Shown here: positions 42,586 to 58,136 of the stretch, piece after piece
Position numbering within the stretch: position 1 is the stretch's first letter
Layout of the letters: each line of letters opens with the position of its first letter
DNA from: an uncultured Pelagibacteraceae bacterium
Lineage (GTDB): Bacteria; Pseudomonadota; Alphaproteobacteria; Pelagibacterales; Pelagibacteraceae
Assembly: GCA_902543485.1 (NCBI GenBank)
Contig: CACBYP010000001.1
Coordinates: forward strand, 1 to 64,000
Direction: 5' to 3'
DNA length: 64,000 nt
Program-made: the position numbers and the translations under genes
Notes under the pieces: generated by a model
What the model saw: only the letters and a program-made list of their open reading frames with translations
What the model was told of the DNA's origin: nothing
Database searches by the model: none

Positions 42586-42623
42586 CTATTGATAATTAAC
42601 TTCTTAAATGTTTTAAACACTAG

Positions 42624-43709
42624 ATGTCTAAAAATACAGAATTCGTTAAGTTCGATAAAGTTGACAAAAGTTACGATGGTAAAGTCTTAGTAGTAAAAGA
42701 TTTAAATCTTAATATCTCTGAGGGCGAGTTCATTACTATGCTTGGTCCATCTGGTTCAGGAAAAACAACTTGTCTGATGATGTTGGCCGGATTTGAAACA
42801 CCAACCAATGGTGAAATCTATTTAGATTCTAATCCTATTTCAAATATTCCACCGCACAAAAGAGGAATTGGAATGGTTTTTCAAAATTATGCATTGTTTC
42901 CTCATATGACAGTTTATGAAAATTTAGCATTTCCTTTAAGAGTTAGAAAAGTTCAAAAAGATGAGATTGATAAAAAAGTAGACAAAGCTTTATCAATGGT
43001 TTCTTTATCAGGATTTGAAAGTAGAATGCCAGCGCAATTATCTGGTGGTCAGCAACAAAGGGTAGCTGTTGCAAGAGCTCTAGTATTTGATCCAGCAGTA
43101 GTTCTAATGGATGAACCTCTTGGAGCTTTAGATAAAAACTTAAGAGAAAGTATGCAATACGAAATTAAACATATTCATGAAAATATTGGTGTTACTGTAG
43201 TTTACGTTACACACGATCAAGGAGAAGCATTAACAATGTCAAATAGGATCGCAGTTTTTAATGATGGTAAAGTTCAACAATTATCAAGTCCTGATAAATT
43301 GTACGAAGAACCAGTTAATTCTTTCGTTGCAGAGTTTATAGGTGAAAATAATACATTTGGAGGAGAAGTAACTGACATTTCAAAAGATGTTTGTAAAGTT
43401 AAACTACAAAATGGAGAAATTTTAGCTAATCCAGTTTCAGTAACTTCCAAAGGTGATAAAACAACAGTTTCAATAAGACCTGAGAGGGCATTGATAAATC
43501 CAAAAGATAAAATGGATAATAATCAAACGGGAAAAATCGAAGAAGTTATTTACCATGGTGATCACACTAGAGTAAGATTAGATCTTTTAGGTAATAAAGA
43601 ATTTATTTTAAAAGTTCCAAATAGTTCAAACGAGTTAGATTTAAAATTAGGTAATGAGATTAAAGTAGGATGGAACAGTCAAGACGCAAGAGCTCTAGAT
43701 CCTAAATAA
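42624..43709 (+). CDS. potA: PotA-type ABC transporter ATP-binding protein
   Basis: A 361-residue ATPase of the polyamine/opine/iron class. Walker A GPSGSGKT at residues 41-48, Q-loop in MVFQNYALFPHMTV, signature LSGGQQQRVAVARAL, Walker B VVLMDEPLGALD, switch His in VTHDQGEAL. The C-terminal 120 residues form a TOBE-type regulatory domain with SIRPERALINP. It serves the two permeases at 45008 and 46272. It directly follows the ectoine hydrolase gene in the same direction. No terminator hairpin is apparent before the binding-protein gene, but a promoter-like pair lies in the gap. Confidence 0.92.
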   Translation: MSKNTEFVKFDKVDKSYDGKVLVVKDLNLNISEGEFITMLGPSGSGKTTCLMMLAGFETPTNGEIYLDSNPISNIPPHKRGIGMVFQNYALFPHMTVYENLAFPLRVRKVQKDEIDKKVDKALSMVSLSGFESRMPAQLSGGQQQRVAVARALVFDPAVVLMDEPLGALDKNLRESMQYEIKHIHENIGVTVVYVTHDQGEALTMSNRIAVFNDGKVQQLSSPDKLYEEPVNSFVAEFIGENNTFGGEVTDISKDVCKVKLQNGEILANPVSVTSKGDKTTVSIRPERALINPKDKMDNNQTGKIEEVIYHGDHTRVRLDLLGNKEFILKVPNSSNELDLKLGNEIKVGWNSQDARALDPK

Positions 43710-43749
43710 TTTCTTAAATATCCCAGTATTCCTATAACAAAATGGCCTG

Positions 43750-43778
43750 TTGACTCTGAATATCGTTTTTGTTGTACT
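43750..43778 (+). promoter_or_regulatory. Candidate promoter for the Pot-type binding-protein gene
   Basis: TTGACT (43750-43755), a 17-base spacer, and TGTACT (43773-43778, four of six matches to the -10 consensus) sit 45 to 75 bases upstream of the ATG at 43825. This could allow the binding protein to be transcribed separately from potA. Confidence 0.35.
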
Positions 43779-43801
43779 TCGCTTATATAAATTAATTTAT
43801 A

Positions 43802-43813
43802 TTAAACGTTTAA
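43802..43813. promoter_or_regulatory. 12-bp palindrome before the Pot-type binding-protein gene
   Basis: TTAAACGTTTAA is perfectly self-complementary and directly precedes the ribosome-binding site (ggagg at 43817-43821). It may be an operator; a G+C centre in AT-rich surroundings makes it less likely to be random than AT-only palindromes. Confidence 0.4.
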
Positions 43814-43824
43814 ACGGAGGATAA

Positions 43825-44940
43825 ATGAAAAAATTAAGTAAATTATTACTTGCTCTTTCTTTTGCTCTTTCAATAACTTCATCTGCATTTGCGGTTACAG
43901 TAGCATCTTGGGGTGGAGCTTATACAGAGTCTCAAAAGCTAGGGTATGGTGATCCAACTGCAAAAGCTCTTGGTGTTGATATCAACTGGGTAGACTATTC
44001 AGGTGGATTATCTGAGATTAAAGCTCAAAAAGAAGCAGGTGCAATTACTTGGGATATTATCGATGTATTCGCATTTGATACTATCAACGGATGTGACGAA
44101 GGAATTTTCGTTGAATTCGATTTTGACAAAGACTTCCCTGCAGCTCCAGATGGAACTCCTGCAAGTGAAGATTTCTTTGCTCCAATGCCAAGTAAATGTG
44201 CGGTAGGAAACATTTTATATTCTTGGAACTATGCTTATAACGTAAACAACGTTGATGGTACGCCAAAAACTATAAAAGATTTCTTTAACACTAAAAAATT
44301 TCCAGGAAAAAGAGCTATTTATAAATCAGCTCTAACAAACCTAGAAATCGCTTTAGCTGGTGACGGAGTTTATATGGGTAAAGGTGGATCAGAGATCTAC
44401 AAATTACTAGAAACTGAAGCTGGTGTTAATAGAGCTATGAACAAAATTAAAGAGCTTTGTACAGATCCAAATGGTGGATGTGTATTCTGGTCTGCAGGTG
44501 CTCAACCACCAGAATTATTAGTATCTGGTGAAGTTGTTATGGCAACTGGTTGGAATGGAAGATTCTTTAATGCTGAAATCGGTGAAGGTGCTCCAATTAA
44601 ACAAGTATGGGATGGACAAGGTCTTGACTATGAATATTTCGCACTTGTTAAAGGTGGACCAGATGAAGCAAATGCTAAAAAAGCTTTAGCAATGATGACT
44701 AACACTGAAATGTTAGCTGGAAGTGCTAAATATATTGCATATGCTCCATACAGATTATCATCTTTAGAAATTATCAAAGCAAATGAGCCTTGGTATAAAG
44801 ATGGTAAAACTGAAATGATGCCACAAATGCCAACTGCTCCTTCAAACACTAAAAAATACTTTTTAGTTGATCCATTTTTCTGGGCTGATAACGGTACAGA
44901 ACTTGGTGAGAAGTGGGAAGCTATGAAAGCTGGTCTATAA
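43825..44940 (+). CDS. PotD-type ABC transporter substrate-binding protein
   Basis: A 371-residue periplasmic binding protein of the spermidine/putrescine/opine class. Residues 1-23 are a signal peptide ending SAFA-V. Mature start VTVASWGGAYTESQK is the class signature, and WDIIDVFAFD, IKDFFNTKKFPGKRAIYKS and VMATGWNGRFFNAE follow the usual order. Cys pairs (INGCDEG with PSKCAVG, and ELCTDPNGGCVFW) are likely disulfides. A strong ggagg Shine-Dalgarno supports the start. The codon set looks optimised relative to neighbours (frequent gct, ggt, aaa), consistent with high expression. A strong hairpin follows the stop. Substrate may be ectoine-like, given the DoeA/EutA genes, or a polyamine. Confidence 0.86.
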   Translation: MKKLSKLLLALSFALSITSSAFAVTVASWGGAYTESQKLGYGDPTAKALGVDINWVDYSGGLSEIKAQKEAGAITWDIIDVFAFDTINGCDEGIFVEFDFDKDFPAAPDGTPASEDFFAPMPSKCAVGNILYSWNYAYNVNNVDGTPKTIKDFFNTKKFPGKRAIYKSALTNLEIALAGDGVYMGKGGSEIYKLLETEAGVNRAMNKIKELCTDPNGGCVFWSAGAQPPELLVSGEVVMATGWNGRFFNAEIGEGAPIKQVWDGQGLDYEYFALVKGGPDEANAKKALAMMTNTEMLAGSAKYIAYAPYRLSSLEIIKANEPWYKDGKTEMMPQMPTAPSNTKKYFLVDPFFWADNGTELGEKWEAMKAGL

Positions 44941-44976
44941 AAGAGTATAAAAGACTAGAATAATATAATATATATA

Positions 44977-45004
44977 GGGCGACTTTTTTAAGTCGCCCTT
45001 TTTA
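44977..45004 (+). terminator. Rho-independent terminator after the Pot-type binding-protein gene
   Basis: GGGCGACTT (44977-44985) pairs perfectly with AAGTCGCCC (44990-44998) around a TTTT loop, followed by six T's. It lies just upstream of the permease ATG at 45008, so it should attenuate transcription into the permeases. Confidence 0.92.
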
Positions 45005-45007
45005 TTT

Positions 45008-46270
45008 ATGAGCAGCGAAACAAAACAAATACTTACAACTGACGGAATTCCTTTAGAGATAAGTTTAAAAAAAGCTGAAAGAAAAAACAAAATTAAAGCA
45101 TTTTTACTTGTTGCACCATTATTACTTTTTTTGATTATCACTTACATTTTTCCAATCGGGGAAATGTTTACAAGAAGCATTGATGATAAAATGATTACAA
45201 ACATGCTTCCAAAGACTTTTAAGTCTATGGAAACATGGGACGGTAAAGAGCTTCCATCCGAAGAAGTATTTGCTTCATTTTTATCTGATTTTAAAATTCT
45301 TGTAGAAAAAAAAGAACATGGAAAATTAGCCCAAAGACTTAATAAAGAAAAAAATGGGTTCAACACTATTACAAAAAAATTATTCAGACAGGTAAAAAGG
45401 AATAAAATCGACGAGACACAAAGTATTAAAGAACAAATAATGAAAGTGCACAAGAGATGGAGAAATGTAGAATATTGGCAAGCAATTAAAAGAACTGCCC
45501 CTCCTTATACTTCAGCTAAATATTTAAAAGCTATGGATATGTATTTGAATGAAGATAACAAAATTACTCAAGTTAGTGAAGATAGAAGAATACATAGAAT
45601 TTTATGGTTGAGAACTGTAGAGGTTGCTTTCTTTGTTACGGTTTTTTGTTTTTTAATGGGTTACCCAATAGCCCATTTACTAGCAACACTCCCGATGAAG
45701 TACAGTAATTTATTAATGATTTGCGTTCTACTTCCATTTTGGACATCATTATTAGTTAGAACAGCTAGCTGGATGATTTTACTTCAACAACAAGGAGTAG
45801 TTAATGATTTCTTTGTAATGATTGGGCTCGTGGCAGACGATAATAGGCCAGAAATGATGTACAATAAAGTTGGAACTTATGTTGCAATGACACAAATTCT
45901 ATTACCGTTTATGGTTTTACCACTCTACAGCGTAATGAAAACTATCTCGCCAAGTTTAATGAGAGCAGGCAAATCTCTTGGTGGAACACCTTTTGTAGCC
46001 TTTTGGAAAGTATATTTTCCATTAACAATTCCAGGAATTGGGGCAGGTTGTCTTTTAGTTTTTATTTTAGCAATAGGATATTACATTACACCTGCATTAG
46101 TTGGGGGAGCATCAGGAACTTTAATTAGTAACCAAATTGCATATCATATGAAAACTACTTTAGATTGGAGTTTTGCTTCAGCGATGGGGCTTATGTTGCT
46201 TGGAGGAGTTTTGGTTATCTATTGGCTTTATAATAAATTAGTTGGAGTTGATAATATTAAGTTAGGTTAA
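45008..46270 (+). CDS. potB: PotB-type ABC transporter permease with large N-terminal insert
   Basis: A 420-residue inner-membrane permease, about 130 residues longer than E. coli PotB (about 280). After the first membrane segment (residues about 30-52) a long hydrophilic insert of about 140 residues (about 55-195) precedes the rest of the permease. The insert is rich in Lys and Glu, and helical in appearance (DFKILVEKKEHGKLAQRLNKEK, IKEQIMKVHKRWRNVEYWQAIKR). The permease core carries the EAA-type loop SLMRAGKSLGGTPFVAFWKVYFPLTIPG. It should form the channel with PotC. Since the insert follows the first helix it would face the periplasm. Confidence 0.85.
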   Translation: MSSETKQILTTDGIPLEISLKKAERKNKIKAFLLVAPLLLFLIITYIFPIGEMFTRSIDDKMITNMLPKTFKSMETWDGKELPSEEVFASFLSDFKILVEKKEHGKLAQRLNKEKNGFNTITKKLFRQVKRNKIDETQSIKEQIMKVHKRWRNVEYWQAIKRTAPPYTSAKYLKAMDMYLNEDNKITQVSEDRRIHRILWLRTVEVAFFVTVFCFLMGYPIAHLLATLPMKYSNLLMICVLLPFWTSLLVRTASWMILLQQQGVVNDFFVMIGLVADDNRPEMMYNKVGTYVAMTQILLPFMVLPLYSVMKTISPSLMRAGKSLGGTPFVAFWKVYFPLTIPGIGAGCLLVFILAIGYYITPALVGGASGTLISNQIAYHMKTTLDWSFASAMGLMLLGGVLVIYWLYNKLVGVDNIKLG

Positions 46271-46271
46271 T

Positions 46272-47126
46272 ATGGCATTACCAAAGTATACAGAAACTAG
46301 ATATAGAATTTGGCACTACTTTTACATTGCCATATGTACTTTTGTTTTTATTTTTTTAATAGCACCTTTGTTTGTAATATTTCCATTATCATTTAATGCA
46401 GAAGAGTTTCTTGTTTTTTCAGAAGGGATGAAGAATTTAGACCCAGATGCTTTTTCATTAAGATGGTACAAAGATATGGTTTACGGCACAAAGAACCCAT
46501 GGGGTCTTGCTGCAAAGAATAGTTTTATTATTGCTATATTTGCAACTTTAGGGTCAGTAATTTTAGGAACGGTTGCTGCATTAGGATTGAGCAGCAGACA
46601 CATGCCCTTTAAAGGAATAATAATGGCAACTTTGATTTCACCAATGATAGTTCCACTTATTATATCAGGTGTTGCAATATTCTTTTTTATGGCAAAAGCA
46701 GGTTTAGCGGCAACTCATACAGGAATAGTTTTAGCTCATATAATTTTAGGAACACCTTTCGTTGTAATAACAGTTACTGCAACATTATCAGGTTTTGATC
46801 ATAGTGTGACGAGAGCAGCAGCCAGTTTAGGTAGCAATCCAGTAAATACATTTATGAAAGTAACACTTCCATTAATTTTGCCTGGAGTAATATCAGGAGG
46901 TTTATTTGCTTTTGTAACTTCTTTTGATGAAGTTGTAGTCGTTTTATTTTTAGCTGGTCTTGAAAACACAACAATTCCAATTCAAATGTGGACAGGTTTA
47001 AGAGAACAATTAAGCCCTACAATTCTAGCAGTTGCTACATGTTTAATCGTTTTATCAACCTTAATATTAATTAGTGCTGAATTATTAAGAAGAAGATCGG
47101 AACGTTTAAGAGGAATTAATAGATAA
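46272..47126 (+). CDS. potC: PotC-type ABC transporter permease
   Basis: A 284-residue inner-membrane permease of normal PotC length, with about six hydrophobic segments. The EAA-type cytoplasmic loop is HSVTRAAASLGSNPVNTFMKVTLPLILPGV. FAFVTSFDEVVVVLFLAGLENTTIPIQMWTGLREQLSP is the conserved C-terminal block of PotC-like permeases. It follows potB by one base and ends exactly where the convergent thiolase gene ends, with no hairpin between them. It pairs with the extended PotB and the PotA ATPase. Confidence 0.9.
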   Translation: MALPKYTETRYRIWHYFYIAICTFVFIFLIAPLFVIFPLSFNAEEFLVFSEGMKNLDPDAFSLRWYKDMVYGTKNPWGLAAKNSFIIAIFATLGSVILGTVAALGLSSRHMPFKGIIMATLISPMIVPLIISGVAIFFFMAKAGLAATHTGIVLAHIILGTPFVVITVTATLSGFDHSVTRAAASLGSNPVNTFMKVTLPLILPGVISGGLFAFVTSFDEVVVVLFLAGLENTTIPIQMWTGLREQLSPTILAVATCLIVLSTLILISAELLRRRSERLRGINR

Positions 47127-48251
47127 TTAATTTACAGACTCGATTACTGTTGCAATACCCATACCTAAACCAATACATTGAGTAGATAAAGCATATTTCT
47201 TATTTTCACGTCTAAGTAAATCTGCAGCTTTGCCAGTTATTCTCGCTCCTGTTGCTCCTAGAGGGTGTCCCAGTGCTAAAGCTCCACCATCTAAATTAGC
47301 TTTTTTTTGATCGATACCAAGATCTTTTAAGCATGCTATTGATTGAGAAGCAAAAGCTTCATTAATCTCTACAATATCGATATCATTAATTGATAAATTT
47401 GCTCTCTCTAATGCTTTCTTAGTTGCTCCTATAGGTCCAAGTCCCATTACATCTGGTTCACATCCTTTAACTCCAGTTGAAACAATTCTAGCTAAAATCT
47501 CTAAACCATTTTCTTTTGCATAGCTTTCTTCACATATCAATGTTGCTGCTGCTCCATCGGTAAGAGGTGAGGATGTTGCTGCAGTAACAGTTCCTTCTTG
47601 ATCAAATGCAAGTTTTAAACCATCTAAAGTTTCTTGATTACTTTTTGGACGTATGTTTCCATCTTTTGTACAACCAGCGATTTCAACGATTTCATTTTTA
47701 AATTTACCATTAACTTCAGCTTCATTGGCTTTTTGATGACTTTGAATTGCAAACTCTTGTTGTTCAGTTCTTGAAATTTTATATCTCTTGGCAACATTTT
47801 CAGCAGTTATTCCCATTGAAAAATAGACATTTGGATTTTCTTTATCTGTGTAAGGATAAGGTATTGGTTCAAAGCCAGTTGTAACCCTAGTCATACTTTC
47901 AACACCTCCACATACGAAAACTTTTCCTGCGCCCATTGCTATTTTACCTGCTGCAACATGAATAGCTTCCATAGATGAACCACACCATCTATCGACAGTC
48001 ATTCCAGACGTATGTATTTCCATTCCAGATAAAAATGTTGTGAGTTTCCCAATATTAAAACTCTGCTCTCCAACCTGGAAAGCACACCCAACAACAATAT
48101 CTTCTATATCAGCAGGATTTACTTTAGTTTTAGATACAAGATTTTTAACAACTTCTGCAAACATATTTACAGGCTTAACATCAATTAATTCACCTTTTCT
48201 TGCCATTGTAAAAGGTGATCTTGAATATCCTGCTATAACTGCTCTTTTCAT
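47127..48251 (-). CDS. Thiolase (acetyl-CoA acetyltransferase family)
   Basis: A 374-residue thiolase. The acyl-accepting Cys is C90 in VDRWCGSSMEAIH, the base His is H329 in LGHPLGATGAR, and the second catalytic Cys is C359 in STQCIGLGMG. The start is MKRAVIAGYSRSPF. It joins or splits acyl-CoA and acetyl-CoA, for example acetoacetyl-CoA or beta-oxidation intermediates. It is the last gene of the minus-strand operon after DmdA, 23 bases away. Acetoacetate from dehydrocarnitine cleavage, once activated to CoA, would be one possible source; a FadN-type enzyme at 60222 is another partner. Substrate not determined by sequence. Confidence 0.9.
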   Translation of the reverse strand: MKRAVIAGYSRSPFTMARKGELIDVKPVNMFAEVVKNLVSKTKVNPADIEDIVVGCAFQVGEQSFNIGKLTTFLSGMEIHTSGMTVDRWCGSSMEAIHVAAGKIAMGAGKVFVCGGVESMTRVTTGFEPIPYPYTDKENPNVYFSMGITAENVAKRYKISRTEQQEFAIQSHQKANEAEVNGKFKNEIVEIAGCTKDGNIRPKSNQETLDGLKLAFDQEGTVTAATSSPLTDGAAATLICEESYAKENGLEILARIVSTGVKGCEPDVMGLGPIGATKKALERANLSINDIDIVEINEAFASQSIACLKDLGIDQKKANLDGGALALGHPLGATGARITGKAADLLRRENKKYALSTQCIGLGMGIATVIESVN

Positions 48252-48274
48252 ATAAGACTTATACCCACTAATTA

Positions 48275-49438
48275 TTATTTTGAAAATGGTAAAGAGGACA
48301 CAATTCCTTTTCTTAATTTATTATCAGGAGTGTGAACTAAAACTTCTGATCCTGTTTTGCAAAATTCATTTAAAATCATAGATAAACCAATATTTTTTTT
48401 GAATTTTGGAGAATAAATCCCTGAAGTAATTTTACCAATTAATTTCTTATCTTTTGAATAAAGTGGAAAAGGAATTGAACATGGAGGACAATCTACACCA
48501 TCAAATAATACTCCTTTTAATTTTTGTTTTACACCTTGTTTCTTAATATTATCTAAAGCATTTTTTCCAATGAAATCATGATCGCTTTTGTCACTACAAT
48601 ATTTTTCTAGGTTACATTCAATTGGATTATTTTCTTTTGTAAAATCATTTCCATATGACATTAATCCTGCTTCTATTCTGTCAATTAAATTTGGGCATCC
48701 TGGAGCAATGTTAAATTCTTTCCCCGCTTTCCATATTATATCCCAAATTTTTTCTCCCATTTCATTTTTGTCGAAGTAATCTTCAAAGCATTTAAAATAA
48801 ATCTCAAATCCATCTTGTTTGCTGTATCCTGATCTTGCAATAACTTGTTTAGTTCCTAAAAAATCAAATATTCTAAAATTAAAAAATTTTAATTTTCTAA
48901 TATCTTCTCCGAATATTGATGCCATCAAATCTTCAGACTTTGGACCTTGTACTGCAAGAGGATATACATCTGGTTCTGTTATGCTCACATTTAGATTTAA
49001 ACCAACAGCAATACCTTTTGCCCAAAGTAATACATCGGAATCTGCTATTGAAATCCAAAACATATCATCATCTAACTTTAACAACACTGGATCATTTATC
49101 ATTCCAGCATTTTCATCTATCATAGGAATATAAAAACATTTTCCAGTCTCCATATTTTTTAAAGATCTTGGCGTCATTTTTTGTACTAATAAACTAGCGT
49201 CTGGACCTGATATCTGAACTTGTCTTTGACAAGAAACATCCCATAGCTGAACATGCTCATTTAAATGCCAATAATCATCCTCAACAGATTTCTGAAATCT
49301 TTTTGGTAAGAGCATATGATTTACAACAGTAAAATCAGTTACACCACATTCTTCAACTCTCTTGGTGTAAGGAGTTCTTCTTATTCTCCTAGACATATTT
49401 AGTTTTGTGCTAATTTTGCTTTGTATCAACGAAGCCAT
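48275..49438 (-). CDS. dmdA: DMSP demethylase DmdA or close paralogue (GcvT family)
   Basis: A 387-residue tetrahydrofolate-dependent demethylase of the aminomethyltransferase superfamily. DmdA moves a methyl group from dimethylsulfoniopropionate to folate, making 3-methylmercaptopropionate. The N-terminus SRRIRRTPYTKRVEE then VNHMLLPKRF, and the EHVQLWDVSCQRQVQISGPDA block, closely resemble DmdA of Roseobacter and SAR11. CFYIPMIDENAGMINDPVLLKL, PLAVQGPKSEDLM, ARSGYSKQDGFEIY and LIDRIEAGLMSYGNDFTKENNP also follow. Homologues acting on other methylated substrates (dimethylglycine, sarcosine) share the fold. It lies between thiolase and a transthyretin-like gene in a tightly packed operon. Confidence 0.75.
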   Translation of the reverse strand: MASLIQSKISTKLNMSRRIRRTPYTKRVEECGVTDFTVVNHMLLPKRFQKSVEDDYWHLNEHVQLWDVSCQRQVQISGPDASLLVQKMTPRSLKNMETGKCFYIPMIDENAGMINDPVLLKLDDDMFWISIADSDVLLWAKGIAVGLNLNVSITEPDVYPLAVQGPKSEDLMASIFGEDIRKLKFFNFRIFDFLGTKQVIARSGYSKQDGFEIYFKCFEDYFDKNEMGEKIWDIIWKAGKEFNIAPGCPNLIDRIEAGLMSYGNDFTKENNPIECNLEKYCSDKSDHDFIGKNALDNIKKQGVKQKLKGVLFDGVDCPPCSIPFPLYSKDKKLIGKITSGIYSPKFKKNIGLSMILNEFCKTGSEVLVHTPDNKLRKGIVSSLPFSK

Positions 49439-49441
49439 ATA

Positions 49442-49777
49442 TTATTTTGACCACCAAACTGTATAGCTGTTAGGAGAAATTATTATTGGCAAGTGATAAT
49501 TTTTTTTATTATCAGTCATTTTAAATTTTACGACTATTTCACCCACAATTTTTTTCTTTTTAAAGTATCTTTTAATATCACAAATCATTTCATAATCGCA
49601 TTTACAATCTTTTTTGCTAAGATTGAAATGCTGATTAATCCTACCATTTCCATCAGTCTTTGTATTCAAAAAAAGCTTTTTTAATTTTGAGGATTGTATT
49701 TGATAAATCTTTACTTTGACGTTACTTGCATGAGTTCCATCAGAACCATTCAATAAATGTGAGCTAAATTTTGCCAT
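49442..49777 (-). CDS. Transthyretin-like / hydroxyisourate-hydrolase-related protein with altered C-terminus
   Basis: A 111-residue protein with the order of 5-hydroxyisourate hydrolase: H7 in SSHLLNG, R46 in TDGNGRINQ, and H95 in NYHLPIIISPNSY, which match the His-Arg-His catalytic set. The C-terminal tetrapeptide that is YRGS in true hydrolases is here WWSK, so substrate binding must differ. The mid-region has two Cys (KKDCKCDYEMIC). True HIU hydrolase acts in uric-acid breakdown, but no urate oxidase or allantoin gene is nearby. Instead it is wedged between DmdA (3 bases) and a ThDP enzyme (1 base). Function unknown; possible neofunctionalised hydrolase. Confidence 0.72.
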   Translation of the reverse strand: MAKFSSHLLNGSDGTHASNVKVKIYQIQSSKLKKLFLNTKTDGNGRINQHFNLSKKDCKCDYEMICDIKRYFKKKKIVGEIVVKFKMTDNKKNYHLPIIISPNSYTVWWSK

Positions 49778-49778
49778 T

Positions 49779-51518
49779 TTACTCTATTGAAGATTTCTCT
49801 CTCTTACTGGCCACAGCAGCAACAATTGGACTTAATACTGGTTTAGCTTTTACATTTACACAAGCAGTTTTACCGCTTGCAATAGCTCTTTTTAGTGCTG
49901 GACCCAATTCTTCTCTTCTCGTTACTAATTCACCATGACCCCCAAAACCTTCAAATATACTGTGGAAAGGTATATCTCTAAAGTCTGTTGCAACTCTTTT
50001 TCCGCTTTCAAATAGTCTTTCTTGTTGTTGACCAATTGATGCTAAGCCACCATTATTGTCAATAACAACAACGATTGGTTTCTTTTCAAAAAATGCAGTT
50101 TCTATAGACATGCCACCAGATAAAAAGGCACCATCTCCACTAATTAAAATTACATTCGATTTAGGATTATTATTTTTTGCAGATAATGCAAATGATACAC
50201 CAACACCCAGCATACTAAATGTGCCTGGATGTAAAATTCCACCCAATTTTTTTCCTTGAGCTCCTGCTAAATTTATAGCAATCTCCGACCAGAAATGAGT
50301 ATTTCCTCCATCAATTACAAGCCAATCTTTCTCATCCATTGCGTCTTGAACGTCTAACGCTAATTGTAGCGGATGAATTTTTCCTCCATTTTTTTTTGCT
50401 TTATCTGCTTCAATCTTTAATTCATTTAAAGATTTATCCACCCAATCTTTTTTTTTATTTTTATTATCTTGAAACCAACTATTTCCTAAATTCCATTTAT
50501 TATTTTTCTTTAAATTACATAGAGTATCCAAAAATACTCCTGGATCACATAAAAGGTTATGATCAGCCGCTCTATTAAACTCAATTTCTTCATGGGAACC
50601 GTTAATACAAACTAACGTTGTTGTTTTTGGAATGAAAGGAGGGTTACCAAAATTCATTTGGTTATCTAATCTTGCACCAATCATTAAAACTAAGTCTGAA
50701 TTATGCAATGCAAATTCTGAGGGTGGATATTGGTGAATATCTGCTAAACCCATATATGCATTTGCCTCTTCCCCCAAAAGTTTTTGATGGTATGGCACAT
50801 TAAAAACTGGAATATTTAAACTTTCACCCGCAGTCTCTAAATTTTTTTCTGAGTTTGACCACCAAACACCATGTCCTCCAATTATGACAGGTTTTTTTGC
50901 ATTACATGCTAGCTCAAGTATTTTTGATAGAGCATTTGGATCTGGCCATGCTTTAGCAACTGGCTTTGCTTTATGTGAAAATGGTCTTTCTTCAAGTCCA
51001 ACATTTTCCTCAAATGAAGAAAACATTATATCCACTGGTAAACTTAGATGAACGGCTCCAGGATATCCATTCGTTGCAATTCTGTAAGCTTTGTCAACAA
51101 ATTCTCTAATTCTTGTTCCATCTGTAATGCTTGCACTATATTTTGTAAGAGGAGCAGCTATTGAAACATCATCAATTTCTTTAAAGCCACCTGACCCTTG
51201 TCTTTTTAAACTACTTGATCCGGTTATATAAATTATTGGAGTTCTTTCTCCCCATGCTTCCATCATGGATGGTACTGCATTTGCAAAACCTTCTGGTCCA
51301 ACTAAACATACAGATGGTTTTCTTGTAATTCTTGTGTGTCCATCTGCTAAGTGTCCAGCTATTTGTTCATGAGGACAATTAACCACATCAATTTGACATT
51401 CCATGAAACCTTCAATAGCAGGATTACAAAACCCACCAGATAGAGTAAAAACTTTATTAATACCTTTATCTTTTAATGCTCTTGCAATTAATGCTCCGCC
51501 TCTTATTTTTTTTTCCAT
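49779..51518 (-). CDS. Thiamine-diphosphate-dependent enzyme, acetolactate-synthase-like
   Basis: A 579-residue ThDP enzyme with the three-domain layout of acetolactate synthase and relatives. The Pyr domain has the catalytic Glu in CPHEQIAGHLADGHTR; the PP domain has the ThDP motif beginning SGDGAFLSGG and ending VVVIDNNGG. The family covers acetolactate synthase, glyoxylate carboligase, oxalyl-CoA decarboxylase, benzoylformate decarboxylase and sulfopyruvate or sulfoacetaldehyde enzymes; I cannot place it in one. Neighbours argue against acetolactate synthase, as no IlvN/IlvC follows. It is two bases from an FMN 2-hydroxyacid dehydrogenase, so a 2-oxoacid made by that enzyme is a likely substrate for decarboxylation or ligation. 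Confidence 0.84.
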   Translation of the reverse strand: MEKKIRGGALIARALKDKGINKVFTLSGGFCNPAIEGFMECQIDVVNCPHEQIAGHLADGHTRITRKPSVCLVGPEGFANAVPSMMEAWGERTPIIYITGSSSLKRQGSGGFKEIDDVSIAAPLTKYSASITDGTRIREFVDKAYRIATNGYPGAVHLSLPVDIMFSSFEENVGLEERPFSHKAKPVAKAWPDPNALSKILELACNAKKPVIIGGHGVWWSNSEKNLETAGESLNIPVFNVPYHQKLLGEEANAYMGLADIHQYPPSEFALHNSDLVLMIGARLDNQMNFGNPPFIPKTTTLVCINGSHEEIEFNRAADHNLLCDPGVFLDTLCNLKKNNKWNLGNSWFQDNKNKKKDWVDKSLNELKIEADKAKKNGGKIHPLQLALDVQDAMDEKDWLVIDGGNTHFWSEIAINLAGAQGKKLGGILHPGTFSMLGVGVSFALSAKNNNPKSNVILISGDGAFLSGGMSIETAFFEKKPIVVVIDNNGGLASIGQQQERLFESGKRVATDFRDIPFHSIFEGFGGHGELVTRREELGPALKRAIASGKTACVNVKAKPVLSPIVAAVASKREKSSIE

Positions 51519-51519
51519 A

Positions 51520-52680
51520 TTAGTAAGTTGTATTCATAAAAAGTTTTTGTTCGATTATATCAGAAGAAACTTCATTAATATCATTTAATCCAACCAAACC
51601 TAGTGTTGTGCTGGTTTCTTCTTTTATTATGTCTACAATTCTTCTTAGCCCGCTAGCACCATCAGCGCCCATGGCATACATTACAGGCCTTCCAATCATT
51701 GAAAAATCTGCTCCTAAAGCTAATGATCTAACAATATCGCTACCACTTCTTATCCCACTATCAAAAATAATCGGAAAATTATTTCCTAATGCCTCTCTAA
51801 TAAAAGGTAAAATGTTTATTGCTGCTGAGGCACTATCTAATTGTCTACCTCCATGATTTGAAACTTGGATAGCATCAGCGCCCATTTCTTTAATTTTAAC
51901 TGCATCATCTGATGACATAACACCTTTTACAATTAATTTGCCTTTCCATTTATTTCTTACTCTTTTTAGAGTTTCCCAATCTGTTTTTCCTCTACTTTCT
52001 TTTCTTTTAAAAATACCTTTTCCACTTTTTGAAGTCTCGTAATTCATTGGCTTTGGTATTCCATTAAGCAATGTAGATATTGACCAAACTGGATGAGTTG
52101 CAAAATCAAAAAATTGTTTAGGTCCAATTTTAAATGGATATGAGAATCCATTTTTATCATCTCTAGTTCTCCTAGATAAAACCGGAACATCAACAGTAAG
52201 TATAGCAACTTCATAACCAGTTTTTTCTGCTCTATCGAGCAATTCCATGACAAAAGCTTCATCCTGAAAAATATAAAGTTGAAGCCACGAATGACCTTCT
52301 GAAAGTTCATACATTTTTTCTAAGGTAGTTGTGGATGCCATCGATACACAAGTTGGTATATTATTTCTTGCACTCTCTTTTGCCAGCATTGAGTCTGCTC
52401 CCGGCCATGAAAGATTTGTCATACCCATTGGGGCAAAACCAAATGGATAGTCATAGTTAAATCCAAGAATATTTTTTTTTAGTTTTCTTTCCTCTACATT
52501 TCTTAGAACTCTTGGCTCAAGACGTATTTGATCTAAAGCAAAACTATTAATTTCTGATAACTTTTCATCTCCAGATGCGCCATCAATAAAATCATAAACT
52601 ATCTTTGGCAATCTTTTCTTTGATAGTTTTTTTGCGTCTTCAATGCTAAAAATTTTATTACTGGCTTTAATGTTATCCAT
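51520..52680 (-). CDS. FMN-dependent alpha-hydroxy-acid dehydrogenase/oxidase
   Basis: A 386-residue TIM-barrel flavoenzyme of the lactate/glycolate/mandelate dehydrogenase family. The active-site motif SNHGGRQLD contains the catalytic His and the substrate Arg. The N-terminal VYDFIDGASGDE, the FMN-contacting FGFAPMGMTNLSWPGAD, LQLYIFQDEAF, LIVKGVMSSDDAV, and IIFDSGIRSGSDIVRSLALGADFSMIGRP all follow the family order. It oxidises a 2-hydroxyacid to a 2-oxoacid. The start overlaps the S51-like gene by eight bases, and the stop abuts the ThDP enzyme gene. Lactate, glycolate or a methylthio hydroxyacid are possible. Confidence 0.9.
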   Translation of the reverse strand: MDNIKASNKIFSIEDAKKLSKKRLPKIVYDFIDGASGDEKLSEINSFALDQIRLEPRVLRNVEERKLKKNILGFNYDYPFGFAPMGMTNLSWPGADSMLAKESARNNIPTCVSMASTTTLEKMYELSEGHSWLQLYIFQDEAFVMELLDRAEKTGYEVAILTVDVPVLSRRTRDDKNGFSYPFKIGPKQFFDFATHPVWSISTLLNGIPKPMNYETSKSGKGIFKRKESRGKTDWETLKRVRNKWKGKLIVKGVMSSDDAVKIKEMGADAIQVSNHGGRQLDSASAAINILPFIREALGNNFPIIFDSGIRSGSDIVRSLALGADFSMIGRPVMYAMGADGASGLRRIVDIIKEETSTTLGLVGLNDINEVSSDIIEQKLFMNTTY

Positions 52681-53368
52681 TTAAATTTTTTATATATGTT
52701 TTTAAACTTATCTTATCATGTCTAGTCACATAATAAGCATCATGATTAATTCTTGAAGAATAAACCTCTGAAGGAACTCCGTCAATAAAAAGCACAGCTA
52801 CACCATCATCAATGGCTATTCCATCTGGCAAATTTCCGTCTTTAATTTCTGAAATAAATTGTCGAAGTCGATTATTATCTGAAGAATGAGGAGTGCAACT
52901 TCCATCTAAAAAATTTATTCCTTTTAATGGACTTAGCTCTTTATCGACCGAGTCTGATAATATCCAATCAAACCAACAGACGGCTCCTGCGCTTATTCCA
53001 CTCAGAATTATTCCCTTTTCATATGCATCTTTAAATACTTTGATAAGATTATGTCTTTTCCAAATATTAATCATGTTAGAGGTATTACCACCTCCTACAT
53101 AAATTATATCTTTGTTCATCAGCCATTCATTAAAACCTTCCACACTTGAACATAGATTAAAATGAGATAATTTAAATTTATGCGATTTAAATCTTTTATA
53201 AAAAAGATCGGTCTTTTCTTGATTATCATTGCTAGCGGTAGGTAAAAAACCAATATTTATTTTTGATTTATTAACTTGATTTATAACATATTCATCCAAG
53301 TCTTCGTCAGACGAATGTGTAAATCCACCACCACCAATTGCTATTATTATTTTTTTATTCCTGACCAC
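52673..53368 (-). CDS. Peptidase S51 family protein (dipeptidase E / cyanophycinase-like)
   Basis: A 231-residue Ser hydrolase of the S51 family. The nucleophile is S126 in SGISAGAVCWF, the VGGGNTSNMI strand-turn is at residues 91-100, and the N-terminal IIAIGGGGFTH is the start of the fold. PepE cleaves Asp-X dipeptides; cyanophycinase cleaves beta-Asp-Arg. Glu or His acid/base residues were not clearly matched. It overlaps the preceding GcvT-like gene by 22 bases and the FMN gene by eight. The presence of a peptide or amide hydrolase in an otherwise C1/hydroxyacid operon is unexpected; a glutamyl or aspartyl conjugate may be the true substrate. Confidence 0.84.
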   Translation of the reverse strand: MVRNKKIIIAIGGGGFTHSSDEDLDEYVINQVNKSKINIGFLPTASNDNQEKTDLFYKRFKSHKFKLSHFNLCSSVEGFNEWLMNKDIIYVGGGNTSNMINIWKRHNLIKVFKDAYEKGIILSGISAGAVCWFDWILSDSVDKELSPLKGINFLDGSCTPHSSDNNRLRQFISEIKDGNLPDGIAIDDGVAVLFIDGVPSEVYSSRINHDAYYVTRHDKISLKTYIKNLNG

Positions 53369-54570
53369 GGAGAAGGACCTGTTGGAATATCGATTTTTAA
53401 ACCTCTTACAATTTCATTTTTAAAGTCATACATTGGTAAGGCACATATTTCACCTTTATGAATTTTATTATCATTGCAACTTACATCCACTATTAATCCT
53501 GGTTTATATTTTGTAGAATTCATTAAAACTATTCCAACACCACATTTTTGAAAAGGAGACCAAGTACTTGATGTAATTTTTCCAATTACTTCATTATTAA
53601 ATTTTATGTAAGTTCCTTTTAAACCTGTTCCGTTTTCTACTCGTATTCCCCAACATCTTTTTTCTTTATCGGCAGTTATCAATGCTGATTTTCCAATAAA
53701 ATAATTTTTTTTCAAATCGACATACTTACCTAATCCGACATCATATGGATTTGTTTCATGGTTAAAGTCTTGCCCAGCTGATAATAATCCAGCTTCTATT
53801 CTTTTACATCTGAAACCTGGGGTCCCTGTGAGTATCATTCCCATTTTTTTTCCTTCCTCAAGTATGTAATCCCCAACTTTTTCAGTATTATTATTTTTTC
53901 TAAAATAAATTTCCCAACCAAGTTCATTACTAAAACCTGATCTACTTATGATTACCTTTTCATTTAGTATAGTTATTTCTTTCCAATCAAAATATTTCCA
54001 ATTCTCAGGAAAAGTTTCTTTACTTAAAACTTTTAAAAGATCCATAGATTTTGGTCCTTGAATTTGACTTACCCAAACGTCTGGGTCAGAAATTTTTACA
54101 TTAAGATCATCAGTGTGTGCTTTATACCATGAAAAAAGATCACCATCAGCTTGAACAAACCAGAATTTATTTTCTTCAAGTTTTAGCAAAACTCCATCTG
54201 TAAGCATGCCTCCATCGTTGTAACAAGCGAATTGGTAAGAGCACCTTCCTACTTTTACTTTTGAGATATCTCTTGTGAAAATTTTTTGTAAAAGTTTTTC
54301 TGCATCAGGACCAGATATTTCGTACGGATGTTCTCCAGTATGACGAAATATTACTTCTTGTCTTACTTTCCAATACATTTCATCAGCTGTTGCATGTGAA
54401 AGAACTTCTGGATTTAATCTTCCAGCATAAAAAGAATACTCTGGATCGTAAGGAAGTTCTTGGTACGCTAGAGGATGTATTCCGACAGTTCGTGCTAGTT
54501 CAACAACTTTATTATCATTGGATTTTAAAGGTTTTACTGAAAATCTGACTTTGTTTAATTCGTTTTGCAT
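53347..54570 (-). CDS. GcvT/DmdA-like aminomethyltransferase family protein
   Basis: A 407-residue folate-dependent methyl- or aminomethyl-transferase relative. It shares the superfamily order with the DmdA at 48275: GEHPYEISGPDAEKLLQKIFTRDI, CYNDGGMLTDGVLLKL, VSQIQGPKSMDLLK, ISRSGFSNELGWEIY, FRCKRIEAGLLSAGQDFNHETNPYDVGL, but lacks the DmdA N-terminal NHMLLP block. So it probably demethylates another methyl donor (an amine or sulfonium). It is the first gene of the minus-strand operon, whose promoter must lie in the 141-base divergent region before the Dpp operon. It overlaps the S51-like gene by 22 bases. Confidence 0.82.
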   Translation of the reverse strand: MQNELNKVRFSVKPLKSNDNKVVELARTVGIHPLAYQELPYDPEYSFYAGRLNPEVLSHATADEMYWKVRQEVIFRHTGEHPYEISGPDAEKLLQKIFTRDISKVKVGRCSYQFACYNDGGMLTDGVLLKLEENKFWFVQADGDLFSWYKAHTDDLNVKISDPDVWVSQIQGPKSMDLLKVLSKETFPENWKYFDWKEITILNEKVIISRSGFSNELGWEIYFRKNNNTEKVGDYILEEGKKMGMILTGTPGFRCKRIEAGLLSAGQDFNHETNPYDVGLGKYVDLKKNYFIGKSALITADKEKRCWGIRVENGTGLKGTYIKFNNEVIGKITSSTWSPFQKCGVGIVLMNSTKYKPGLIVDVSCNDNKIHKGEICALPMYDFKNEIVRGLKIDIPTGPSPWSGIKK

Positions 54571-54711: not shown

Positions 54712-56199
54712 ATGAAATACATACTTAAAGTTTTTTCAGTGACTTTTATGTCTCTGATATTATCTTTTTCTATTGCCAATGCATCAAGTGGAGTATTTAA
54801 AGTATCACATGATCTTGGATTTGGAAAAGATACTAACTTAGATGCCATAACTAAAGGCCGTTTATTTCAAGTTGTCATCAAAACACAAAATAGATTAGTA
54901 AGACCTGATATGAACGGTGTGCCATCGCCTTCATTATCAACAGATTGGAGTGCTAATTCTGATGCAACTGAATGGACATTTAATTTAAGAAAAGGAATAT
55001 ATTTTCATGATGGATCAGCATTTGATGCTCCAGATGTAAAATATTCTCTAATGAGAGCTAAAGATCCTGATATCGGATCTCCAGTTAGAAAAAGTTTAAA
55101 TGTAGTTGAAGATATTGAGGTAGTTGATCAGCATACTGTTAAAATGAAGTTATCAACTTCATTTGCTGACTTTCCTTTATTATTAACTGACTACAGATTA
55201 AGAATGATACCTGAAGGATCAGGAGATACTATTGGACAAACTGGAGTTGGTACTGGACCATTCATGGTTGATAAATTTGATCCAGAAGGAACTACAATTC
55301 TAAAAGCTAACCCAGATTATTGGGAAGGTGCACCAGGAGTTGCAGAAGTTCATGTCATTGCGATCCCAGATGCTCAAGCAAGAATACAAGCTCTTTTAAC
55401 TGGTCAAATTGATATGAACAGATATGTTCCTTTCAATCAAAAAAAGATATTTGATAGTAATTCTAAATTTACAACAACTGTAATTCCTACTGGAAACTGG
55501 AGAGGCGTAGTTATGAGAACTGATACTGCTCCGTTTGATAATCCGAAAGTAAGAAAAGCTTTCAGGTTAGCAGTTGATAGACAAGAACTTGTAGATCTAG
55601 TTATGGGTGGAGCAGCAACTGTATCTTGTGATACACCTGTAATGCCTTCTGATCAATATCGTTTACAAATGGATTGTCCTCAAAATATTAGTAAAGCAAA
55701 AAATTTATTAAGAGAAGCAGGATATCCAAATGGACTTGAATTGACTGTTTACCCAGCAACTTTAGAACCAACTTGGCCTACAATTGCAGAAGTCGTTCAG
55801 CAGCAAGTTGCAAAAGCTGGAATTAAAGTTAACATTGAAATGGTACCATCTAAAGGTTATTGGAATGAAGTATGGATGAAAAAACCAGTTTCAATGACAC
55901 GTTGGAACCAAAGACCAGCAGACACAATCTTGCACGAAGCTTATCATAGTGGAGCTAAATGGAATGAGTCTTACTTTAAAAATGCTGACTTTGATAAAAA
56001 TTTAGCTGATGCTAGAAGTGAGTTGGATTTCAATAAAAGAAAGAAAGCATATCAAAATGCTCAAATGACTTTATGGGAACAAAGTGGAACAATGATACCA
56101 TACCACGTATCTAGACTTGTAGTTACTTCATCAAAAGTTAAAAACCTTGATGCTGTAGATCACTTTTCTATACAGTGGCATAAAGTTAAAGTTGACTAA
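54712..56199 (+). CDS. Peptide/nickel-type ABC transporter substrate-binding protein (DppA-like)
   Basis: A 495-residue periplasmic binding protein of the SBP_bac_5 family. Signal peptide residues 1-24, ending IANA-S. Family elements: residues about 65-90 (LSTDWSANSDATEWTFNLRKGIYFHDG), the ligand-lobe PDVKYSLMRA, and IGQTGVGTGPFMVDKFDPEGTTILKANPDYWEG. Cys in SCDTPVMP and MDCPQN probably form a disulfide. A ggga Shine-Dalgarno (aagaggga) supports the start. It precedes DppB/C and a fused ATPase. A terminator hairpin follows the stop. Ligand could be peptides, but this family also binds opines, nickel or sugars. Confidence 0.88.
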   Translation: MKYILKVFSVTFMSLILSFSIANASSGVFKVSHDLGFGKDTNLDAITKGRLFQVVIKTQNRLVRPDMNGVPSPSLSTDWSANSDATEWTFNLRKGIYFHDGSAFDAPDVKYSLMRAKDPDIGSPVRKSLNVVEDIEVVDQHTVKMKLSTSFADFPLLLTDYRLRMIPEGSGDTIGQTGVGTGPFMVDKFDPEGTTILKANPDYWEGAPGVAEVHVIAIPDAQARIQALLTGQIDMNRYVPFNQKKIFDSNSKFTTTVIPTGNWRGVVMRTDTAPFDNPKVRKAFRLAVDRQELVDLVMGGAATVSCDTPVMPSDQYRLQMDCPQNISKAKNLLREAGYPNGLELTVYPATLEPTWPTIAEVVQQQVAKAGIKVNIEMVPSKGYWNEVWMKKPVSMTRWNQRPADTILHEAYHSGAKWNESYFKNADFDKNLADARSELDFNKRKKAYQNAQMTLWEQSGTMIPYHVSRLVVTSSKVKNLDAVDHFSIQWHKVKVD

Positions 56200-56210
56200 A
56201 AGTATTTAGA

Positions 56211-56240
56211 TAAAGGCCGCATATAAGCGGCCTTTATTTT
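56211..56240 (+). terminator. Rho-independent terminator after the peptide-type binding-protein gene
   Basis: A 9-10 bp stem (AAAGGCCGC, 56212-56220, with GCGGCCTTT, 56227-56235; an extra T-A pair at the base) around an ATATAA loop, then a T-rich tail. It lies between the binding-protein gene and the permease genes, likely a partial terminator. Confidence 0.9.
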
Positions 56241-56284
56241 ATTTCTATTTAATTTATTTTTGTTAAAAAGTTCTAGTTAATCTT

Positions 56285-57241
56285 ATGCTTTTATTAATTT
56301 TAAAAAGAATTGGACTAGGGCTTATCACTTTATTTATAGTTTCATTAATTACATTTGTAGGTGTTGAAGTTTTACCTGGGGATGCATGCACAACATATTT
56401 AGAAAGAGAAGCTTATGGAGCAGCTCTTGATGCTTGCATAAAAAGACTTGGTCTAGATATTCCTGCTTATGAAAGATATTTGGACTGGGCATCAAATGTT
56501 ATACGAGGTGATTTTGGTTACTCTTTAAGTGGAGAAATGCCAATTAATGAAGTACTAGGTCCAAGAGTTAAAAACTCATTAGTTTTAGCCTCTGTTTCAA
56601 TACTTATAGGAATTCCTTTAGCAATCGTATTAGGAATAATAACTGCTCTTTGGAGAGATAAGTTTCCAGATATTATGATCTCAACTATCACAATTTTTTC
56701 AATGACTATTCCTGAGTTTATTAGTGCTACTTTACTTATATTAATTGTTGCAATTTGGCTTGGTTGGCTACCAGGCATTGTGATTATACCATCGGATGCA
56801 ACTTTTTATGAATTACTCTCAAATATAATTTTACCCGTTGTTGCAATTTCAATGATTATGACCGCACACATGGCAAGAATGGTACGTTCAAGTGTAATTC
56901 AAGTAATGGCTAGTGATTATGTGCAAATGGCAATTTTAAAAGGTGTCCCATATTGGAAAATGGTATTTAGACATGTACTGCCTAATGCATTATTACCAGC
57001 AATAAATGTAGTGGCGTTAACAATTGCTTGGTTGCTAGGTGGTGTTGTTGTTACAGAAGTTGTATTTAATTATCCAGGTTTAGGCAGACTGGTAATAGAG
57101 TCTATATCAAATAGAGATTTACCTGTTGTTCAAGCATTAGCAATAATATTGGCATCAATCTATGTGGGAATAAATTTAATTGCAGATTTAATGACACTCA
57201 TGCTTAATCCAAGATTAAAAAGTTTACAGATAAGAAAATAA
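56285..57241 (+). CDS. dppB: Peptide-type ABC transporter permease DppB
   Basis: A 318-residue inner-membrane permease of normal DppB size. N-terminal LLILKRIGLGLITLFIVSLITFVGVEVLPGD is the family's first block. WASNVIRGDFGYSLSG is the conserved post-helix motif, and SDYVQMAILKGVPYWKMVFRHVLPNALLP contains the EAA coupling loop. ERxVxxPGLGRL-type ending TEVVFNYPGLGRLVIESI is present. It pairs with DppC one base downstream. Expression probably depends on read-through past the terminator at 56211-56240. Confidence 0.93.
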   Translation: MLLLILKRIGLGLITLFIVSLITFVGVEVLPGDACTTYLEREAYGAALDACIKRLGLDIPAYERYLDWASNVIRGDFGYSLSGEMPINEVLGPRVKNSLVLASVSILIGIPLAIVLGIITALWRDKFPDIMISTITIFSMTIPEFISATLLILIVAIWLGWLPGIVIIPSDATFYELLSNIILPVVAISMIMTAHMARMVRSSVIQVMASDYVQMAILKGVPYWKMVFRHVLPNALLPAINVVALTIAWLLGGVVVTEVVFNYPGLGRLVIESISNRDLPVVQALAIILASIYVGINLIADLMTLMLNPRLKSLQIRK

Positions 57242-57242
57242 A

Positions 57243-58136
57243 ATGGAGAGTAATTTAATTACAGAGGATAAACAAAAAAACAAACTAGAAAAGGCTTTTG
57301 AGATTCTAAAAACTATGGCCTCCAAGCCTTCTGGGTTGATTGGACTTACAATTGTATTATTTCATGTAATCTTAGCATTAATAAGCCCTTACATTGCACC
57401 ATACGATTATAAAGCAATTAGCCCAAATACCATGTTACTTGCACCTTCAGCTGAACATTGGTTTGGAACAGATAGCTTGGGTAGAGATGTTTTTACAAGA
57501 ACAATACTTGGAGGTCGAACAGCTCTTACGGTAACTTTCTTTGGATCACTTATAGCTCTTTTGTGGGGAGGTTTACTTGGAATTTTTTGTGGTTTAGTTG
57601 GAGGTAAAATTGATGATGTTGTAATGAGAGTTGTTGATGCGTTTCTTTCTATCCCTTGGATACTTGCAATGTTATTAATTGTTTCTCTTTTAGGAACATC
57701 AACAGAGGTTTTAATTCCTGCACTAGGTTTTTTTTATGGTAAAGGAATAGTAAGAGTTGCTAGAGCTGCTACTCACGATGTTATTGCTAAAGACTTTATA
57801 GTTTCAGCCAGAGCTAGAGGTCATAGCAATATGTCTATTATTTGGAATGAAATTATTCCAAATGTTAGAGATGCTATATTAGTAGAGGGAGCAATGAGAT
57901 GGTCTTGGATGTTATTAGGATTTAGCTCATTGTCATTCTTAGGTTTTGGTGTAAGTCCACCAACGCCTGATTGGGGTTTGATGATATCCAATGCTAGAGG
58001 ATTGATGTCGTTTGCATACTGGTCTGTAATTGCTCCGATAGTAGGATTAAGTTCGTTAATTATTGGAATAAATTTAACTGCTGATGCATTTGCAAAAGCT
58101 TTAGGAATTGATCGTTCAACCAAGGCACCTGTTTAA
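57243..58136 (+). CDS. dppC: Peptide-type ABC transporter permease DppC
   Basis: A 297-residue inner-membrane permease. LLAPSAEHWFGTDSLGRDVFTRTILGGRTAL is the DppC signature, and ATHDVIAKDFIVSARARGHSNMSIIWNEIIPN contains the EAA loop that contacts the ATPase. The N-terminal 20 residues are hydrophilic and Lys-rich. The start follows dppB by one base, and its stop is followed directly by the ATPase gene with no gap. Forms the channel with DppB. Confidence 0.93.
   Translation: MESNLITEDKQKNKLEKAFEILKTMASKPSGLIGLTIVLFHVILALISPYIAPYDYKAISPNTMLLAPSAEHWFGTDSLGRDVFTRTILGGRTALTVTFFGSLIALLWGGLLGIFCGLVGGKIDDVVMRVVDAFLSIPWILAMLLIVSLLGTSTEVLIPALGFFYGKGIVRVARAATHDVIAKDFIVSARARGHSNMSIIWNEIIPNVRDAILVEGAMRWSWMLLGFSSLSFLGFGVSPPTPDWGLMISNARGLMSFAYWSVIAPIVGLSSLIIGINLTADAFAKALGIDRSTKAPV

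Follow-up and report, generated by a model that had tools for sequence, protein, structure and literature searches.

What does a protein closely resembling the dimethylsulfoniopropionate (DMSP) demethylase DmdA do in an operon that also encodes a 2-hydroxyacid dehydrogenase, a thiamine diphosphate (ThDP) enzyme, and a relative of 5-hydroxyisourate hydrolase (HIUH)? The question is raised by a 64,000-nucleotide stretch of DNA (positions 1 to 64,000 of contig CACBYP010000001.1, assembly GCA_902543485.1; hereafter the window) from an uncultured Pelagibacteraceae bacterium with a genome of 1.31 Mb in 21 contigs. This organism belongs to SAR11, whose members rank among the most abundant marine heterotrophs. 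We give roughly an even chance to the reading that the operon is devoted to the catabolism of a methylated 2-hydroxyacid, or of a precursor of one, imported by an adjacent Opp-type transporter. Judged from the sequences, the most likely chemistry is transfer of a methyl group to folate, oxidation of a 2-hydroxyacid, and decarboxylation of a 2-oxoacid. The operon would then represent a form of folate-linked demethylation catabolism.

The operon comprises seven open reading frames (ORFs) on the minus strand, here called A to G in order of transcription. The core genes are C (51520–52680, 386 amino acids), a flavin mononucleotide (FMN)-dependent 2-hydroxyacid dehydrogenase similar to lactate and mandelate dehydrogenases (FMN_dh, 393.1 bits); D (49779–51518, 579 amino acids), a ThDP-dependent enzyme with three TPP_enzyme domains; E (49442–49777, 111 amino acids), of the 5-hydroxyisourate hydrolase/transthyretin family (HIUase/Transthyretin, 71.7 bits); and F (48275–49438, 387 amino acids), a DmdA paralog of its own subclade that matches both GCV_T and the NCBIfam DMSP demethylase model. 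The others are A (53347–54570, 407 amino acids), of the GcvT/DmdA-like folate methyltransferase family (GCV_T, 143.9 bits); B (52673–53368, 231 amino acids from a GTG start), of peptidase family S51 (Peptidase_S51, 123.7 bits); and G (47127–48251, 374 amino acids), an acetyl-CoA C-acyltransferase, or thiolase (NCBIfam AcCoA-C-Actrans, 410.4 against a cut-off of 240.55). A and B overlap by 22 bases and B and C by 8, after which the gaps are 1, 1, 3, and 23 bases. A preliminary description of the window had proposed this closely packed seven-gene operon; coordinates, order, and packing were verified from the ORF list, and the gene families it had named were borne out by Pfam and NCBIfam matches.

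We mapped 42 loci carrying D at 62–100% identity: six from SAR11, three from family f141, 20 from f109, nine from f23, and four from f81, where we take f109 to be SAR116-like and f23 to be Rhodobacteraceae-like. Some intergenic gaps are distorted in GC-rich loci, since the longest start was used. C-D-E-F were found in the same order and on the same strand in 37 of the 42 loci, spanning all five families, and D and E adjoined on one strand in every locus; one 4-kb contig (L265) truncates C and F. Eighteen ORF families recurred in at least three of the five groups, namely D, E, F, C, OppA, OppB, OppC, OppDF, PotA-like, PotC-like, TRAP DctP, DctQ, and DctM, S51, LysR, Ldh_2, and two unnamed families; the Opp set of f141 was counted with the other Opp genes, yet is only 30–42% identical to them. 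Thus, C-D-E-F plus a transporter constitute the core, and A, B, and G are accessory. An S51 gene was present in 23/42 loci, a count that includes a homolog beside the Opp genes of L174, and its GxSAGA motif with Ser126 was kept in 24/24 rows. The preliminary description had included hydrolysis of a conjugate in the pathway; since S51 is accessory, such hydrolysis would lie outside the core. Its proposal of a common pathway is well supported by the gene order, which is conserved across families, and by the co-occurring adjacent transporter.

Beyond SAR11, D was found at 62–73% identity in 22/61 f109, 9/198 f23, and 4/14 f81 genomes. A draw across the phylum gave D in 2/398 genomes, one of them the window's own, and a draw across the class gave it at ≥68% identity in 6/385 genomes, the window included; at a looser limit 20/385 passed, those outside the six at 29–32% identity. 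A plasmid search with D returned four records, all <30% identical.

Within SAR11, D was compared with contigs representing one genome per species. This confirmed 233 relatives, and the following counts refer to the best 80 loci, which are titled Pelagibacteraceae, Pelagibacterales, or uncultured Alphaproteobacteria, carry D at 82–100% identity, and share only six members with the 42-locus set. A run here means that no other labeled gene lies between; unlabeled genes may intervene, as between A and B in L157. The full run A-B-C-D-E-F-G was present in 55/80 loci, which answers the concern, raised in the preliminary description, that the order might not be conserved in relatives. A-C-D-E-F without B and G was found in 10 loci, all titled Alphaproteobacteria, 13 loci were interrupted by contig ends, and two (L061 and L070) had no match to A though the contig continues beyond. 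C-D-E-F formed a run in 75/80 loci, the remaining five ending at contig edges. Thiolase G was present in 66 of the 70 SAR11-type loci, the other four being cut before G, and in 0/10 loci of the other lineage. Among whole genomes of the order, D (E value up to 1e-150) was found in 38/247, or 32/149 of the more complete ones; the operon is accessory, carried by a minority of SAR11. All D-positive genomes of this draw belong to the window's genus; a separate draw from the family placed D in one further genus as well (G014).

Divergently from the operon, 141 bases from the start of A, lies an Opp/Dpp-type ATP-binding cassette (ABC) transporter on the plus strand (54712–60164), the probable substrate importer, consisting of a binding protein (54712–56199), permeases (56285–57241 and 57243–58136), and fused ATPases (58137–60164). 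The binding protein was found at ≥75% identity in 10/10 operon-positive and 0/19 operon-negative SAR11 genomes searched; four of the latter contained a homolog at 28–30%. Window-type Opp genes accompanied 14/20 f109 loci, and in G999 they form a single run OppA-B-C-DF-C-D-E-F, with an S51 homolog divergent from OppA. Tripartite ATP-independent periplasmic (TRAP) systems were present in 8/42 loci. In L248, a Pot system, EutA, and an M24 protein stand beside C-D-E-F, comparable to the convergent flank of the window; EutA-like genes are found in both L248 and L250. Since the M24 protein of L248 resembles DoeA only weakly (52.9 against 613), we give little weight to a link to ectoine. Among solved proteins, both the Opp binding protein and a TRAP binding protein gave many weak matches that indicated no ligand. 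In the window itself, EutA-like, DoeA/M24-like, and Pot-type ABC genes (40648–47126) converge on the operon, with the PotC gene abutting G; EutA (216.6 against 318) and DoeA (447.2 against 613) both fall under their NCBIfam cut-offs.

We then considered how F relates to DmdA. In a tree of 44 rows, 16 F proteins formed one clade (95/96), with SAR11 DmdA (9 rows, 100/100) and roseobacter-type DmdA (3 rows, 100/100) as its neighbors. The fork joining the three was supported at 87/83, their branching order being unsettled, and the tree program flagged the long branches of GcvT and A and an unusual composition in three rows, including one F. Because F forms a clade of its own that joins both DmdA clades, it appears to be a third subclade of the DmdA group, a grouping that supports a demethylation pathway. 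Its identity to canonical SAR11 DmdA is about 48–52%. Against the cut-off of 410 of the NCBIfam DmdA model (PRK12486), the F of the window scored 531.8, and all eight F proteins scored passed (470.8–633.9); the model also accepted 4/4 proteins of the SAR11 and roseobacter DmdA clades (574.9–691.4) and rejected 4/4 other related proteins (371.3–389.6). Of the three homologs in G357, F alone passed.

At the active site, Glu212 of F was kept in 39/39 sequences and Tyr214 in 38/39. A passage of PMC7487153 reports W171 as the key tryptophan for DMSP in DmdA, which by our own offset we equate with W197 of 3tfh. This site is Tyr in 39/39 F proteins, but Tyr also occurs there in the roseobacter-type L271, L272, and G999 C53. 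We therefore rejected the exchange of Trp for Tyr as proof that F is not a DmdA, because the DmdA of Phaeobacter inhibens DSM 17395, which adjoins dmdD and an AMP-binding gene, carries Tyr too. Separately, a related GcvT-like protein scoring 378.8 against the DmdA cut-off of 410 lies on P. inhibens plasmid pP30_b (L273:5992–10090), where OsmC, enoyl-CoA hydratase, and acyl-CoA synthetase belong to the same run, and in L079 an OsmC-like gene and an enoyl-CoA hydratase follow F. The streamlined genome of the window holds 11 GCV_T-domain matches in all.

The other core enzymes retain active-site residues of their families. The SNHGGRQ motif, with the His276/Arg279 pair of FMN 2-hydroxyacid dehydrogenases, was kept in 38/38 C proteins, and the best-scoring solved proteins were lactate oxidase and mandelate dehydrogenase. 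In D, Glu51 and the ThDP motif GDG...NN were kept in 43/43 sequences, which share an invariant SIE end; its best solved matches were oxalyl-CoA decarboxylase/2-hydroxyacyl-CoA lyases, followed by benzaldehyde lyase and acetolactate synthases. D matched no named equivalog, the best NCBIfam score being 274.3 against 587 and none of the 25 models listed having its cut-off exceeded. The arginine transaminase and mandelate pathways likewise couple a hydroxy- or oxoacid step to a ThDP decarboxylase, but they include neither a demethylase nor an HIUH-like partner, and D has no close match among named members. Further oxidoreductases for 2-hydroxy- or 2-oxoacids occur nearby: Ldh_2 in 6/42 loci, while L243 and L244 each have an ApbA-type protein. 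The preliminary description had assigned no role in the pathway to E, which of all the partners of D is the most strictly conserved (42/42 loci). Aligned with the HIUH structure 4q14, E kept His7, Arg46, and His95, the catalytic residues of HIUH, in 43/43 sequences. It differs in two new invariants, His16 (Pro in 4q14) and Trp108 (43/43; Tyr in 4q14), and in its tail, where WWS stands within the last six letters in 29/43 sequences and the C-terminal YRGS motif of HIUH is lacking. Its score of 72.1 lies below the NCBIfam HIUH cut-off of 87.45.

Together, these features suggest a pathway in which a methylated 2-hydroxyacid would be imported by the Opp-type transporter, F would pass a methyl group to tetrahydrofolate, C would oxidize the 2-hydroxyacid to a 2-oxoacid and pass the electrons on, and D would decarboxylate or cleave the 2-oxoacid. 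E, tied to D, might hydrolyze a cyclic or labile amide-like intermediate. As accessory steps, an extra methyl group could be removed by A in SAR11 and f141 and by a corrinoid MttB-type enzyme in f109 and f23, S51 could hydrolyze an amide, and thiolase G could lead the product into acyl-CoA metabolism. We infer each of these reactions, their order, and the substrate from what was observed: the gene set and its order, the active-site residues, and the co-occurrence of the transporter.

Several points weigh against this pathway. The transporter varies among loci (Opp of two types, TRAP, and Pot), and there may therefore be more than one substrate. D-E stand without C and F in the stretches fetched for L141, L251, and L252, C is missing from L246, and A from the two SAR11 loci already mentioned. 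D and E score below the cut-off of every NCBIfam model listed, the role given to E is a guess, and the enzyme activities are read from sequence. Finally, the ligase or aldehyde dehydrogenase that the decarboxylation product would require is not in the operon. A literature search, with subscription papers outside its scope, found no title or abstract describing this gene set. Mycosporine-like amino acids, ergothioneine/ovothiol, and ectoine were also considered as substrates, for which the literature gave nothing specific.

Two alternatives are narrower versions of the pathway for a methylated 2-hydroxyacid, each naming a substrate class. The first, which we consider unlikely, is a quaternary-ammonium 2-hydroxyacid bearing an amide, guanidino, or imidazole group, from which A or MttB would take the first N-methyl group and F another, while E, S51, asparaginase, or ureohydrolases would open amide-type bonds. 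It draws on the way A and MttB alternate: MttB was found in 15/42 loci (13 f109 and two f23) and A in 9/42 (SAR11 and f141), never in the same locus. A Pfam test of 32 genomes (nine SAR11/f141, 12 f109, seven f23, and four f81) agreed with this pattern. The corrinoid-binding domain PF02607 and the MTTB domain PF06253 were both absent from the genome of the window and from 9/9 SAR11/f141 genomes (six operon-positive and three operon-negative), and both were present in 18 of the 19 f109/f23 genomes, PF06253 occurring in all 19. The exception, G1200, counts against this substrate class, as it has MttB but no PF02607 match. In the four f81 genomes, PF02607 lay in frames of 880–951 amino acids, a MetH-like size, and PF06253 was absent. 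Agmatinase-family genes in L243 and L248, HutF in L250, and an asparaginase-family gene in L141 would suit the opening of amide-type bonds, but such neighbors occur in only one or two loci each. Moreover, 18/42 core loci, including L174, L245, L249, and L254, have neither A nor MttB, and GcvT-family enzymes are not known to transfer methyl groups from ammonium to tetrahydrofolate.

A itself scored 205.8 against the DmdA cut-off of 410, and five A rows were monophyletic, apart from F and on a long branch. The Pfam pattern is consistent with A replacing a corrinoid enzyme in SAR11 and f141, but this argument is one of position; A belongs to a family other than MttB, and some core loci carry neither gene. 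A 2025 study (PMC12478193) reports that in roseobacters glycine betaine is demethylated by MttB homologs together with the corrinoid protein MtgC, and that SAR116 carries MtgC homologs whereas Pelagibacteraceae genomes encode none. Our operon resembles this MtgB-MtgC-MtgD system in having an MttB-family gene in 15 core loci, all without A, but differs in that MttB and the corrinoid domain are missing from the SAR11 genomes tested, and A is a GcvT-family protein.

The second, 4-dimethylsulfonio-2-hydroxybutyrate (DMSHB), is the best named candidate, though as the actual substrate we think it unlikely. This sulfonium compound arises as the intermediate when DMSP is made by way of transamination. 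F would demethylate the sulfonium, C would oxidize the 2-hydroxyacid, and D would decarboxylate 4-methylthio-2-oxobutyrate toward methional and methylthiopropionate. DMSHB fits F, C, and D because it is DMSP plus one CHOH, and F is nearest to the DMSP demethylases. Sulfur-related neighbors also speak for it, namely a homocysteine S-methyltransferase-family (S-methyl_trans) protein in the f141 loci L072, L079, and L155, an SBP56-family gene in L253, and a Cys/Met pyridoxal phosphate enzyme 27 bases after F in L248; however, each is confined to one lineage, and the SBP56 protein scored 155.9 against the NCBIfam methanethiol oxidase cut-off of 650. PMC11306096 describes the DMSHB decarboxylase domain DsyD as similar to ureidoglycolate lyase, a likeness by which action on DMSHB would have a precedent among ureide-type enzymes. 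Yet DMSHB leaves E, S51, and A or MttB without a job. Neither a sulfonium nor a nitrogenous betaine substrate accounts for all the features.

It is quite improbable, in our view, that F is simply an ordinary second DMSP demethylase, with the operon an accessory DMSP module in which C-D-E are unrelated and merely share a promoter. The scores of F against the DmdA model, both in the eight proteins scored and among the three homologs of G357, speak for this reading, as do PMC5015088, PMC4304780, and PMC12262181, which credit dmdA to SAR116 strain IMCC1322 or the SAR116 clade. Another SAR116 survey (PMC8547437) places dmdA only in its LGC2 group. Against this, C-D-E-F stay together over five families, and the genome of the window already has a canonical dmdA beside an AMP-ligase. 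No dmdB/dmdC/dmdD cluster surrounds F in the 42 loci, where we met only distant matches: AMP-ligase homologs at the edges of three loci, an acyl-CoA dehydrogenase of 27% identity that immediately follows F in L243, and a hydratase of 23% identity in L155. Compared with the DmdA-DmdB-DmdC-DmdD pathway, then, F shares the DmdA family, the folate-binding domain, and a score above the DmdA cut-off, but it adjoins C, D, E, and a transporter instead of dmdBCD and has its own subclade. PMC7370799 describes dmdA subclades named in quantitative PCR surveys, in which the number of dmdA copies serves as a gauge of DMSP demethylation, and F could be one of these named subclades. An early study of SAR11 aminomethyltransferases (PMC3160333) lists four in HTCC1062, two of them of unknown substrate.

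A purine or ureide pathway, in which E would be a true HIUH, Ldh_2 would act as a ureidoglycolate dehydrogenase, and D would be a decarboxylase of the oxalurate type, is very improbable: E does belong to the HIUase family, with which it shares the His/Arg/His residues, and the Ldh_2 of L140 has malate/lactate/ureidoglycolate dehydrogenase as its best NCBIfam match (179.4 against 336), but E has a subthreshold score, a changed tail, and the new invariant His16, it lies outside a purine gene cluster, and urate oxidase, 2-oxo-4-hydroxy-4-carboxy-5-ureidoimidazoline (OHCU) decarboxylase, and allantoinase were not met among the identified core neighbors, for which no dedicated search was made. According to a 2025 purine study (PMC11698098), many SAR11 and SAR116 genomes hold a second "5-hydroxyisourate lyase" of low similarity, which is located away from the purine operon and was set aside as differing in function. 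E fits this second homolog, by description rather than by identifier, and the operon offers a genomic home for what has been an orphan in both groups.

F is so DmdA-like that standard annotation would name it a DMSP demethylase. Either F demethylates DMSP within an unexpected pathway, or some of the dmdA annotation of SAR116 and SAR11 is mis-assigned. C, D, E, F, and Opp can now be named as a set. In a broader reading, which we regard as rather unlikely, SAR11 and SAR116 would break down DMSHB or another sulfonium hydroxyacid in a route that by-passes DMSP, some of the ocean's "DMSP demethylase" would represent an undescribed branch of the sulfur cycle, and E would have a new hydrolase activity in the HIUH fold.

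A promoter scan stayed at shuffle level (32 against a mean of 37.4), and five terminators were predicted against 3.0. The window is rich in methylated-amine genes. Between 22074 and 29594 it carries BKACE, a 3-hydroxyacyl-CoA-dehydrogenase-like gene, a gamma-butyrobetaine-hydroxylase-like TauD protein, and an OpuAC-type betaine-binding protein, and two homocysteine S-methyltransferase-family proteins (PF02574; 35201–36184 and 37828–38760) lie <12 kb from the operon. Near its start, the window encodes an inverse autotransporter beta-domain protein (PF11924; 1165–2040), in a SAR11 genome, directly followed by a protein without a Pfam match (2044–2742).

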